From Caryophanales bacterium (GTDB lineage Bacteria > Bacillota > Bacilli > Bacillales > DSM-4216): a stretch of 52,761 bases of DNA. This document shows, in pieces, positions 24,869-35,052 of this stretch. The stretch covers positions 1-52,761 of the forward strand of contig JADBKC010000003.1 in the NCBI GenBank assembly GCA_014896555.1. Direction: 5' to 3'. Positions within the stretch are counted from its first letter, which is position 1; each line of letters begins with the position of its first letter. The notes below the pieces were generated by a model. That model was not told the DNA's origin, searched no databases, and saw only the letters and a list, made by a program, of their open reading frames with translations. A program made the position numbers and the translations under genes.

Positions 24869-25636
24869 TTATCTATTTTTTTGTTTCTCTTCCTCTTTAT
24901 AGGATTGAAAAAAAGAGCCTACTTCTAAATCAATAACTCCTTTTACTTTTGGATCCAATTGACTAACAATAGATGGATAATACATCATTTTTTTTGAAAA
25001 CGTTCCAAGTGTTGCCCTTACTTCGTAACCGTCATTCATATAAAGTGTGATATGATAAGGATCCGTTTTTTTCGGAGTGTAGTGGATCTCTGAAATAGAG
25101 TTGACGATTTCAACCGGCAATTCATTTAACGATTTCACCATTTCTTTTAAAATAACATCTTTTTTGAAATCAAAAAGAATAGGAGCTTGTTTGGGAATTT
25201 TTACTGCTTTTTCTTTTATCACACGACCGTTTTCCAATACAGGCTTAAATATGTCACCATCTGCTAGATAGCCGATTTGTTTCATTTCCTTGATTCTTAT
25301 ATGGACACGGTTCGGAAACTGGACCGACACGGCTGATGATTTAATTTCAGGTATTTTTTTTAGCCGGTTTTCCGCATCGTCCTTGTTCAGTTCCCAAATG
25401 CTCATTCCGTTTTCAATAGCGCTCCATTTTATAATATCTTTCGTTTTCAGTACATGGTTTCCAGAAACGGTAATTTCTTTTATATGGCTGATCGGCGACA
25501 AAAAATAGACCATCGACAACACCAATAAGAAAAAAAGAAAAAGAAGGAAAATCAGCCGGCGATTCGCCTTTTTTTTGCGATATTCTTTTAATCTAGGAAT
25601 ACGGTCTTCCAATGAGACAATTTTCCCATTTTCCAC
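24869..25636 (-). CDS. divIB: Cell division initiation protein DivIB (FtsQ)
   Basis: DivIB is the bitopic divisome protein that complexes with FtsL and DivIC outside the membrane. The order is a basic cytoplasmic segment (about residues 1-25), one membrane helix (LIFLLFLFFLLVLSMVYFL), a POTRA domain (ISHIKEITVSGNHVLKTKDI) and the beta domain. From GTG 25636, with GGGAGG 7 bases upstream, it has 255 residues (B. subtilis 263). The ORF track adds 44 N-terminal codons that look non-coding. It follows murG without the usual murB between. Confidence 0.93.
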   Translation of the reverse strand: MENGKIVSLEDRIPRLKEYRKKKANRRLIFLLFLFFLLVLSMVYFLSPISHIKEITVSGNHVLKTKDIIKWSAIENGMSIWELNKDDAENRLKKIPEIKSSAVSVQFPNRVHIRIKEMKQIGYLADGDIFKPVLENGRVIKEKAVKIPKQAPILFDFKKDVILKEMVKSLNELPVEIVNSISEIHYTPKKTDPYHITLYMNDGYEVRATLGTFSKKMMYYPSIVSQLDPKVKGVIDLEVGSFFQSYKEEEKQKNR

Positions 25637-25783
25637 TCCATTCCCTCCCTGTTGTTGCTGAACAGCTACTAGGAGCATGTTCCCCTTATTCACCTTTTTC
25701 AAGATATATGGAAACATGCGTCGCATAGTACAGGTGATCCATCTTATTTTTCTTGTACGAACGCGCAACTAGGATAATGCGCC

Positions 25784-26890
25784 TTATTGGGAATTTGATG
25801 ATTCCGCCAGTTCTGCCATTAATTGGTACAATCGATCGGATGCATCTGGAATTCCCAATTTTGAAGAAGCTTGTTTCATTTTTTTCAATCGATTCTCGTC
25901 TGTTAAAACGGCATCTAGCTCTTTAACCAGCCGCTCCGGCGACAATTCTTTTTCTAGAAGCAAAATGGCTGCACCCTTATCGGCTAAAGTCCGGGCATTT
26001 TTTTCTTGATGGTTGTTCGTCACATAAGGGCTCGGAATTAATATGCTAGGCACTCCAAGCGCCGTTAGCTCCGCTAAAGTAGTCGCCCCAGCACGAGAAA
26101 CAACCAGATCTACTTCTTTTAATATCTCCGGCATGTTATGAACAAACGGTGCAATGGCCACATTGGTCGGCTTGCCTGCTAAAGAAGCTTCCTTTTTGAC
26201 AGTCTCAAAATGGATTTCTCCTGTTATATACAAAATTTGATACGGTTTGTTCCGAAAAGCAGCCAGCGATTTTACGACCGCTTCATTCAACGGTCTTGCT
26301 CCCCTGCTTCCGCCAAAAATAAGCACCGTAGGAACATTTTCTTTTAATCCAAACGAACGCAAAACCCCATTTTTCTTAGCCGCTACCACTTCGGAAGCCC
26401 GAGGATTTCCAGTCAAAACGACTTTTTCTCGAGGGAAAAACTCCTCGGCTGCCTCAAAACAAACCGCTATTTTATCAACATATTTGCTTAAAAATTTATT
26501 GGTTAAGCCAGGAACGCTGTTTTGTTCATGTATGATGGTGGGAATATGTAATTTCGACGCGGCGTATACGACCGGTCCGCAAACATAGCCTCCAGTACCG
26601 ATGACAATATCAGGCTTATACTCTTTCAGCCACTTCTTGCACTCTCTAACACCCTTTAGAAAGCGAACCACAGTTTTCACGTTATCAAACGAAAGAGATC
26701 GTTTAAAACCAGTAATATGAATAGAGTGAAACTCAATTCCTTCTCGCGGAACAAGCTTTGATTCCAGTCCTTTCTCCGTTCCGATATACAAAAAAGAAAT
26801 TCCGTCATGTTTTTCTTTTATGGTCCTGATGAGAGCCAAAGCTGGGTAAATATGCCCTCCAGTACCGCCGCCACTGACGACGATTTTCAT
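25784..26890 (-). CDS. murG: Lipid II synthase MurG
   Basis: MurG adds GlcNAc from UDP-GlcNAc to lipid I at the inner membrane face. Motifs are the N-terminal glycine loop [52 protein letters not shown] and [17 protein letters not shown] with [10 protein letters not shown]. Length is 368 residues (B. subtilis 363). GAGGTG stands before ATG 26890. A terminator separates it from spoVE upstream, so it must have its own promoter in 26891-27149; none is obvious by eye. Confidence 0.97.
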
Positions 26891-27189: not shown

Positions 27190-28284
27190 TTAATATCGAG
27201 AATAGCGACTCACATTTAAAAGAATCCCTATAGCGGCTAATACAAGCGTCAAAGAAGAACCGCCGTAACTTAAGAAAGGAAGAGTAATACCGGTGACCGG
27301 CATGAGCCCGGTCACCACACCGACATTAATCATAACTTGGATGGCCACCATGGAAATAATGCCCGCTGCCAGAAAACTTCCATATAAATCTGGAGCTCCA
27401 AGTGCTACGCGAATGCCCCTCCATAATAAAAGCGCAAATAAAAGGAGCACGATGCTGCCGCCGATAAACCCCAATTCTTCCGCCAATATGGCAAAAATAA
27501 AATCGTTTTGCGGCTCCGGCAAATAGAAAAATTTTTGCCGACTTTCCCCCAAGCCTAGCCCCAATAATCCTCCTGGACCAATGGCATACATCGATTGGAT
27601 GATTTGAAAACCGCTTCCAAGTGGATCAGACCATGGATCCAAATAAGAGGTAATGCGGTTCATCCGATAAGGTGCCGACAAAATAAGAGCCGCAAAACCA
27701 ATGAGCCCAACAAAGGCCAAGCCAGCGAAATGTTTGATTTGCGCACCGGCGATAAAGATCATCAAATGCAAAAACACCATGACAGTTCCTGTTCCGAGGT
27801 CCGGCTGGAGCATAACAGCCCAAAAGCTAAAAACACTAAAGACAATGTAGGTACTGGCCCCTTTTTAAAAGAGGTAATACTTTTGCCGTTCTGATAAAAA
27901 TTTTGCCAAAAAAACAATCATAGCCAGTTTCATAAACTCTGAAGGTTGAATAGAAAATGCCCCAACCCCAATCCAGCTTCGAGATCCGTTTCTAACGGTA
28001 CCCACCCCTGGTACTAACACAAGAATGAGCAATAGAAAGCAAACAACAAGAATCACTTTTGACCATGAACGCCATATCCAATACTCCATATTCATAAGCA
28101 AAAACATCGCCATGACGCCAGTTCCGGCAAAAAGCAGCTGCCTTTTCGCAAAATAAAAAGAATCACCAAACTTATAATTCGCCCAAACAGCGCTGGCGCT
28201 GTAAACCATGATGAGCCCGATGGCCAAAAGACTAAGTGTCAATCCAATTAAAACAAAGTCCGGGGAAGACTTTTTGTAAGACAA
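27190..28284 (-). pseudogene. spoVE: SEDS-family sporulation peptidoglycan polymerase SpoVE, disrupted
   Basis: SpoVE polymerises spore cortex peptidoglycan with SpoVD. The first 139 or so residues (LIMVYSASAVWANYKFGDSFYFAKRQ and RNGSRSWIGVGAFSIQPSEFMKLA, quoted in part) and the last 207 (MLQPDLGTGTVMV to LLNVSRYSRY) are intact and in the same frame. Between them the frame meets TAA at 27865-27867, while the expected SITSFKKGPVPTLSLVFLAF is read in another frame. Two missing bases in an A run (27881-27884) and one in a T run (27822-27825) explain this, and restoring them gives 365 residues against 366 in B. subtilis. The likely start is TTG 28284 after GAGGTG. This is either a true mutation or a homopolymer sequencing error. 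Confidence 0.9.
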
Positions 28285-28384
28285 AGCCAACACCTCGATA
28301 GACATAGATTTGAGCTAATCAGCACGAAATTAGCCGATCGTAGGTGTTGATTCTTTGTTGGGCCCGCATCCACTAGACAAGCTC

Positions 28385-29737
28385 TTACTTCAGTCTATGC
28401 ACGGCCTCAATAAAAATATCACCGCGTTGTTCGAAAGTTTTATACTGGTCCCAGCTAGCGCATGCTGGCGATAACAAAATAGTGTCCCCTTTTTCTGACA
28501 ACTGATACGCTTTTGGCACCGCATCGCTCACATTCTCCGCATGGACAATCGTTTTGATGCCTGCTTTACGCGCCGTTTTTGAAATTTTTTCTGCTGTTTG
28601 TCCAAAAGTGATGACAGCTTTCACATTTTTTAAATAAGGAATAAGGTCATCAAAACCGTTGCCGCGGTCCAGTCCGCCTGCAAGGAGAATAATCGGATTT
28701 TGGAAGGCGCTTAAAGCTGCTTTAGTCGCCAACGTATTTGTTGCCTTCGAATCGTTGTAAAATTTTCGTCCGTTCACTTCACCGACATATTGAGTCCGAT
28801 GCTTGACTCCAGCGAAAACTTTTAACACTTGGCGAATCGCTTCATTTCCCCCTCCAGCCAGTTTCACTGCCGCAACTGCCGCCAGTATATTTTCTAAATT
28901 ATGGGATCCTGGAAGGGCAATTTCTTCTGTATCGATCAATTTTTCACCGCGGAAATAGACGCTGCCGTCTTGAATATATGCTCCGTCTTGAATCACTTGT
29001 TTGGTGGAAAACAGAACTTTTTTCGCCTTGGAAAATTTCGTTAGTTCCATTAATTCTTCTTGATCGCCATTGAGAATCAGATAATCGTCTTCTGTTTGAT
29101 TTCTCGTAATATTCGCTTTCGCTTTTGCATATTCTTCTTTTGTTCCATGATAATCAAGATGAGCCTCATACAAATTGGTAATAATGGAAATATGAGGCCT
29201 GAACGTGTCAATCCCCATTAACTGAAAAGAAGACAATTCCATGACCACTATATTTTCTTCGGTTGCCTTTTGGGCGACTTCAGAAGCCACTTTTCCAATA
29301 TTTCCGGCGATAAGCGGCCGCTTTCCATCCTTTTCTAACATCTCAAAAATTAACGTTGTTGTCGTTGTCTTCCCATTCGTACCGGTAATGCCAATAAAAG
29401 GAGCTTCCGAAATTAAATAAGCCAATTCTACTTCCGTCAAAACCGGAATCCCACGTTCCGAAGCCCCCAAAACAAGAGGGTTCGAATAAGGAATGCCAGG
29501 ATTTTTGACGATATACTCATACCCCTCATCCAACAATTCGATAGGATGAGAACCCGTGATCACCTTTATACCCTGTTCTAGCAAATCTTGGGCTTGAGGA
29601 TTTTCCTGCAAAGGTTTTTTATCGTTCACCGTGACAAATGCGCCAAGCTTATGTAAAAGCGAAGCAGCGCTTGCTCCGCTTTTGGCGAGGCCCAATACTA
29701 ATATTTTTTTATGCTGAAATTTAGTGATTGTTTTCAA
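28385..29737 (-). CDS. murD: UDP-N-acetylmuramoylalanine-D-glutamate ligase
   Basis: MurD adds D-glutamate to UDP-MurNAc-L-Ala. The N-terminal nucleotide-sugar domain ([19 protein letters not shown]), the central ATPase with [16 protein letters not shown] near residue 117, and the C-terminal domain ([32 protein letters not shown]) are all present. Length is 450 residues. The start appears to be TTG 29737, directly abutting the mraY stop (TAATTG), and the N-terminus then aligns in length with B. subtilis MurD. The gene is transcribed with mraY and spoVE. Confidence 0.97.
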
Positions 29738-32895: not shown

Positions 32896-32926
32896 AGCGG
32901 TAGGCGGCTTATAGCCGCCTGTCGCT
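32896..32926 (-). terminator. Strong hairpin at the spoVD stop
   Basis: AGCG, GGCGGC, a five-base loop, GCCGCC and CGCT form a nearly perfect inverted repeat that overlaps the spoVD stop codon. The following tract is ATTTCTTCTTC, only moderately T-rich, so it may be a partial terminator or an mRNA-stabilising hairpin between spoVD and murE. Confidence 0.6.
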
Positions 32927-34838
32927 AATTCATAAAAATACGGATGGTGGCTCCTTCTTCTACTTTTGTTCCCGGCTTTGGAGATTGGTTGACCACTTTG
33001 TTTCCATTTCCGCTCACATCGAATTTTAATGGATATCGTTGTTCCAACAATTCTTTTTTAGTCATACCTTCCAGATTGGGAACCTCGATTATTTTCGGGT
33101 CATTCCACTGTCGCTTCTTTTCTATTTGATTTTTTCTCGGTTTGACATTCATTGCCTGCAAACTGTCATCCATCATTTTGCCTACAATTGGAGCTGCGAC
33201 GGTTCCTCCGAATTGAATCGTGCCTTTAGGATTGTCCACTGCCACATAGACGACGATTTGTGGGTCATCTGCAGGTGCAAATCCGATAAAAGAAACGATA
33301 TGATTATTTTCTAAATAACGGCCGTTTTGTGCTTTCTGAGCCGTTCCCGTTTTCCCGCCGACCCGGTAAGAATCGACATAGGCGTTTTTTCCCGACCCTT
33401 TCGCAACGACACTTTCCAACGCATAGCGAATTTGTTTGGATGTCTCTTCCGAAATGACTCTTCTCTTTTTGACAGGAGTTTTTCTCATCAAAACTTCATG
33501 AGTGTTTGGATCAATTAATTCTTTCGCTACATACGGCTGGTACAAAATTCCGCCATTGACGGCAGCGGCAACAGCTGCTACTTGCTGAATAGGAGTAACG
33601 GAAACGCCTTGGCCGAAAGCGGTAGTAGCCAATTCAACTGGCCCTACTTTTTTCAAAGGAAATAATAACCCCTTTCCTTCTCCTTGCAAGTCGATGCCGG
33701 TTTTTTCGCCAAAGCCGAAATTATGGATATATTTGAACAATTTTTCTTTTCCCAGCCGTTCTCCCAATTCGACAAAACCGGGGTTGCAGGAATTTTGGAC
33801 CACTTCCAAAAATGTTTCCGTCCCATGTCCTCCCCGCTTCCAGCAATGTAGTGTGGAACCCGACACTTCAATATAACCGGGATCATGAAACTTTTCTTTC
33901 TCCAAGTCTACCTTTTTTTCCTGAAGAGCCGCAGCCAGAGTAATAATTTTGAATGTCGAACCTGGTTCATACGTGCTCCAAATAGGCAAATTTCGGTTGT
34001 AGATTTCCGGAGGGACATCCTTATAGTTTGCAGGGTTAAAGGTTGGCCTGGAAGACATCGCTAAAATTTCCCCTGTATTTGGGTTCATCGCAATGGCTAT
34101 GATGCCGTCTGGACGATATTTGGCTTCCGCATTGTCCAATTCCCTTTCAATTATCGTCTGCACTTTTGTATCAATGGTCAGCACTAAATCTGCTCCGTCC
34201 ATAGGAGGCTGGTAGTCGTCGGACATATTGGGCATTTTTTTGCCCTTAGCATCAGAATAATATTTCATCGAACCTTTCTGGCCTCTCAACTCTTTATCAT
34301 ATGTCAACTCTAGCCCGGCCAACCCTTGATTATCGATCCCTGTAAACCCTAGTACGTGCGACAAGTAGCTTCCAAATGGATAATAGCGCTTTGAATCTTC
34401 CGCGATAAAAACTCCTTTTATTCCTAACGCTCGAATTTCGTTCGCTTTTTCATAAGAAATTTTTCTGCCCTCAGGTAAGCGTTCAATAGAAGTTTTTTTC
34501 GTCAAGTGCATATACAATTTTTCTTCATTCGCATTGAGAACAGCCGCCAACTTTTCGGCAGCTTCGGCGGGATTTTCAATTTGCCGAGGCATGACATAGA
34601 TCGTCGGAGAGCTTTTGTTTGTAGCTAGTGCAATGCCATTACGGTCGAGAATGTTTCCGCGTTCAGGCTCAAATGGTATATTACGGCTCCATGAGTCTTT
34701 CGCTTTATCTGTCAGCATATCTCCCATAGCAAATTGAACATAGCCAAGTCTAGCATCCATAATAGCGAATATTATCATCCCTGCAAGCAGCAAAAAGGTC
34801 AAACGTTTTCGAACAGTCACTTGAGAAACACGTTTCAA
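32925..34838 (-). CDS. spoVD: Sporulation-specific class B penicillin-binding protein SpoVD
   Basis: SpoVD is the transpeptidase of spore cortex synthesis and partners SpoVE. It has a short cytoplasmic tail, one membrane helix (LTFLLLAGMIIFAIMDARL), a dimerisation domain (SWSRNIPFEPERGNILDRNG) and a transpeptidase with active-site YEPGSTFK near residue 293, SCN and GGKTGTAQ. One PASTA domain ends the protein (IEVPNLEGMTKKELLE). From the second TTG (34838) it has 637 residues; GGAGG stands 7 bases upstream. The neighbouring TTG at 34841 is the alternative. A sigma-E promoter is expected upstream. Confidence 0.95.
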   Translation of the reverse strand: MKRVSQVTVRKRLTFLLLAGMIIFAIMDARLGYVQFAMGDMLTDKAKDSWSRNIPFEPERGNILDRNGIALATNKSSPTIYVMPRQIENPAEAAEKLAAVLNANEEKLYMHLTKKTSIERLPEGRKISYEKANEIRALGIKGVFIAEDSKRYYPFGSYLSHVLGFTGIDNQGLAGLELTYDKELRGQKGSMKYYSDAKGKKMPNMSDDYQPPMDGADLVLTIDTKVQTIIERELDNAEAKYRPDGIIAIAMNPNTGEILAMSSRPTFNPANYKDVPPEIYNRNLPIWSTYEPGSTFKIITLAAALQEKKVDLEKEKFHDPGYIEVSGSTLHCWKRGGHGTETFLEVVQNSCNPGFVELGERLGKEKLFKYIHNFGFGEKTGIDLQGEGKGLLFPLKKVGPVELATTAFGQGVSVTPIQQVAAVAAAVNGGILYQPYVAKELIDPNTHEVLMRKTPVKKRRVISEETSKQIRYALESVVAKGSGKNAYVDSYRVGGKTGTAQKAQNGRYLENNHIVSFIGFAPADDPQIVVYVAVDNPKGTIQFGGTVAAPIVGKMMDDSLQAMNVKPRKNQIEKKRQWNDPKIIEVPNLEGMTKKELLEQRYPLKFDVSGNGNKVVNQSPKPGTKVEEGATIRIFMN

Positions 34839-35052
34839 CAAATCCCCTCCTTTCCGGGCTCGTTTCCAATATATGCTTGTTTTTTTTTAATAGAACGGAC
34901 AAACCCTTAAAGAGAGATCTACTACTATCGTTGAAATGGAACGAGAATGAGACGTATACTATGCACTAGCGCCGTTCACTTTTTCTAGTATCATCAAGCC
35001 ATGATGGACAGGCTGGTGATGAAAACTTTAAAGAGAGACCAATATTTCAAAT
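34839..35052 (-). promoter_or_regulatory. spoVD upstream region with candidate sigma-E promoter
   Basis: Together with the pbpB terminator this fills the 334-base gap between pbpB and spoVD. On the minus strand TTCTATT, 13 bases and CATATATT lie close before the spoVD ribosome site. CATATATT fits the sigma-E -10 pattern CATANNNT, but the -35 matches only five of seven bases and the spacer is one short. The direct repeat TCTCTCTTTAA also occurs twice, about 120 bases apart. No coding sequence was seen. Confidence 0.35.

Follow-up and report, generated by a model that had tools for sequence, protein, structure and literature searches.

The spoVE gene of the window (the whole stretch of DNA analysed here, 52,761 nucleotides) is interrupted by a cluster of small lesions, and this break is very probably a clustered artefact of assembly or consensus calling. 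The most likely cause would be a local error in the sequence or assembly rather than lost sporulation, because a small-deletion cluster of this kind also breaks the only clear prolyl-tRNA synthetase gene of the assembly.

The interrupted spoVE gene and its lesions

Straight-through translation of spoVE recovers the two ends of the protein in a common frame, separated by a TAA and about 20 incorrect residues. A sequence-only reading of this DNA had described intact SpoVE ends sharing a frame, a TAA between them and the expected residues in another frame, and both the open reading frames and the translation bear this out. The features concerned are as follows.

27190..28305, minus strand: spoVE, SEDS glycosyltransferase of the spore cortex, interrupted; PF01098 with one TAA inside, TIGR02615 match in two pieces
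27865..28305, minus strand: open reading frame of the N-terminal SpoVE fragment, 146 aa, ending in TAA
27190..27813, minus strand: open reading frame of the C-terminal SpoVE fragment, 207 aa, without a Shine-Dalgarno-like sequence ahead of its ATG
27878/27879, minus strand: lesion 1, 2 bases missing with respect to the same-genus genome
27816/27817, minus strand: lesion 2, 1 base missing with respect to the same-genus genome
27765..27779, minus strand: lesion 3, a net loss of 3 bases plus several substitutions, which turn the conserved GTCIV into FLHL
25784..26890, minus strand: murG, intact neighbour, from position and sequence
28385..29737, minus strand: murD, intact neighbour, from position and sequence
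32925..34841, minus strand: spoVD, partner of spoVE, intact (TIGR02214, 872.6 bits)

The two fragments match TIGR02615, the NCBIfam spoVE model, in order (model positions 1-128 for the N-terminal fragment and 151-354 for the C-terminal one). Their scores, 191.8 and 325.6 bits, both lie below the curated cut-off of 448.8 bits for full-length members, whereas the intact SpoVE of the same-genus relative reaches 579.7 bits. The identity as SpoVE is further indicated by the position of the gene in the dcw cluster, with what we take from position and sequence to be murD and murG on either side and spoVD nearby, and by the presence of a separate FtsW and RodA elsewhere in the genome (contigs C119 and C2, which we presume to be FtsW-like and RodA-like from comparison with the relative). 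A fourth, partial SEDS match, an FtsW-like gene on contig C191 (L123), was rejected as a spare SpoVE; this contig, whose matched stretch shows an identity of only about 70% with the relative, is probably contamination from another species. SigE, SigG, SpoIIGA and SpoVD have their full length, in agreement with the sequence-only reading, and other parts of the genome encode intact Spo0A and SpoIVA. Between murG and a divIB-like gene (25640-25784) there is no murB, and the relative is collinear here; the order differs in B. subtilis, where murB stands between murG and divIB.

The lesions were defined by alignment of the window with a genome of the same genus (G001), taken as that of Bacillus smithii DSM 4216T; its chromosome of 3,368,778 bp has the length published for this strain (PMC4995803). 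All frame-breaking indels of the coding sequence of the window fall inside 115 bases of spoVE (27765-27879), and no frame-breaking indels were found in its other genes (about 43.6 kb) once compensating gaps, gene ends and one spurious extension were set aside, so that the clustering in spoVE is more than chance would give. The spurious extension accounts for an apparent defect, two insertions, in the gene at 24869-25768; these fall upstream, outside the gene proper. The sequence-only reading had named two sites in spoVE and overlooked the third patch at 27765-27779. Furthermore, the residues it expected (SITSF... and the stretch ahead of MLQPDLG) differ from those of the relatives, which read ...KYITSFKKG...AFGLIMLQPDLG.

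Relatives and selection on spoVE

The window and G001 are about 91% identical, with synteny across almost all of the window, and the source of the window is therefore a sibling species of B. smithii. The spoVE gene of B. smithii lies at the same locus and in the same order, with 90% DNA identity over the gene, but has an intact reading frame of 373 aa. Just downstream of it, at L006:2749-3305, the B. smithii genome carries group II intron RNA domains (Rfam RF02001, RF01998 and RF00029), which are absent from this place in the window. A comparison with close relatives, which the earlier reading had proposed as a check, found the segment uninterrupted in all of 109 sequences, of which 29 were loci taken from genomes of relatives and 80 were named loci, with a few belonging to the same genome; the two stop flags among them (L023, L039) lie outside the lesion segment. 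With respect to other Bacillaceae SpoVE (TIGR02615), both window fragments match the family in order, but the family has a continuous frame and a conserved GTC(I/V)V, whereas the window has no continuous frame and reads FLHL. The plasmid and genome-contig collections searched yielded no further sequence of this species.

On either side of the patch, spoVE is still under strong purifying selection. Against G001, the first 140 codons gave a dN of 0.032 and a dS of 0.42 (dN/dS about 0.075) and the last 183 codons a dN of 0.022 and a dS of 0.39 (dN/dS about 0.056), both within the range of the neighbouring genes. The relaxed selection that marks a true pseudogene was thus not seen in the rest of the gene, a test that is uninformative if the loss was very recent. 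As spoVE was constrained until the lesions arose, they are very recent if they are real at all.

The same lesion type in other contigs of the assembly

The assembly is a fragmented draft of 248 contigs, with 94.76% completeness and 5.37% contamination. Sampled contigs were surveyed against G001, covering 168 genes over more than 90% of their length (162,592 bases), for a signature of 1-2-base losses with adjacent substitutions, often several within 50-180 bases. Prolyl-tRNA synthetase is essential, and a cell lacking it is not viable. In the gene that we take to be proS (contig C8, L145), a 2-base loss at C8:5392/5393 splits the reading frame into C8:4064-5398 and C8:5394-5732. G001 has one intact ProS, and no other ProS was found in the assembly, of which the possibly absent 5% or so could conceivably hold a second proS. 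Matches on contig C163 were considered as a second ProS and rejected: they are much weaker, fall in a single uninterrupted frame of 652 aa and correspond to a match in G001 that is just as weak, which indicates another synthetase. A frameshift in the sole proS is impossible in a viable cell, and therefore the assembly must produce such lesions erroneously; the same type of lesion has struck a gene that cannot be lost.

Additionally, a presumed alanine dehydrogenase gene (C41:5518-5586, L158) is broken by two losses of 2 bases each, at a distance of 46 bases from one another. Clustered small indels of the same signature are probably also present in a gene that we take to encode glutaminase (L155:1137-1385) and in a gene of 271 aa (L135:10214-10339), the latter not assigned to a family. 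The other genes flagged in the survey were set aside, as we read them as compensating gaps in diverged stretches, over-extended start codons or spurious ORFs. A shared artefactual cause of the spoVE and proS patches is what we infer from these data. As is the case for artefactual frameshifts in draft genomes, the lesions also strike an essential single-copy gene and are absent from relatives, but here they are clusters of 1-2-base losses and not homopolymer errors.

Alternative explanations and meaning for the organism

For the spoVE lesions, an artefactual origin is not proved, since growth does not depend on this gene and a cell could lose it. Among the alternatives, the one that survives best is a genuine recent pseudogene, in which one clustered event, or several, cost the strain its spoVE and with it the ability to form cortex, the sporulation programme being otherwise still intact. 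The break is clear in the sequence, and the intact state of the other sporulation genes checked is what a very recent loss would predict. Cells need SpoVE to form cortex and heat-resistant spores and not to grow, which was demonstrated in Clostridioides difficile and is also described for B. subtilis (PMC10693644). However, one unusual event would be required to place three lesions within 115 bases of a gene that has not drifted outside them, and the signature in the sole proS shows that the assembly generates such patches by itself. We therefore consider a genuine loss unlikely, and slightly less likely still its more specific form, in which this sibling species of B. smithii very recently ceased to synthesize cortex because one clustered mutation hit spoVE and spared its other sporulation genes.

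The sequence-only reading had favoured sequencing error over mutation. The lesions of the same type in the sole ProS and alanine dehydrogenase genes speak for error; the homopolymer cause that it proposed did not hold. It placed the indels in the runs at 27822-27825 and 27881-27884 (A4 and T4, respectively, on the plus strand), and these do lie near two of the three lesions, but the actual losses, at 27816/27817 and 27878/27879, fall outside the runs, without a length change inside any homopolymer, and the third lesion is left unexplained. In addition, the other genes of the window contain 139 runs of at least 6, which homopolymer miscounts would have struck first, and none of these genes is frame-broken. 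Miscounting is consequently unsupported, the alignment with the same-genus genome contradicts it as the explanation of the spoVE break, and we give it hardly any weight. Equally improbable is a functional split SpoVE, made as two translation products that come together in the membrane, since the second ORF, although it has an ATG just after the lesion, has no ribosome-binding site ahead of it, other residues stand behind DLGTGTVMV instead of the conserved GTC motif, and none of the relatives examined has a split SpoVE.

An artefact of assembly or consensus calling thus remains the preferred reading, in which the gene would be an ordinary SpoVE at its usual dcw position and 27765-27879 a local patch of wrong sequence, which could have originated, for example, where coverage was thin or a gap had been filled. 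The same clustered lesion type affects about 3 to 5 of the 168 sampled genes, so that claims of gene loss from this genome need to be supported by reads. Caution is therefore advised before other broken genes of this assembly are called pseudogenes or the organism asporogenous; the organism itself would most likely have an intact spoVE.
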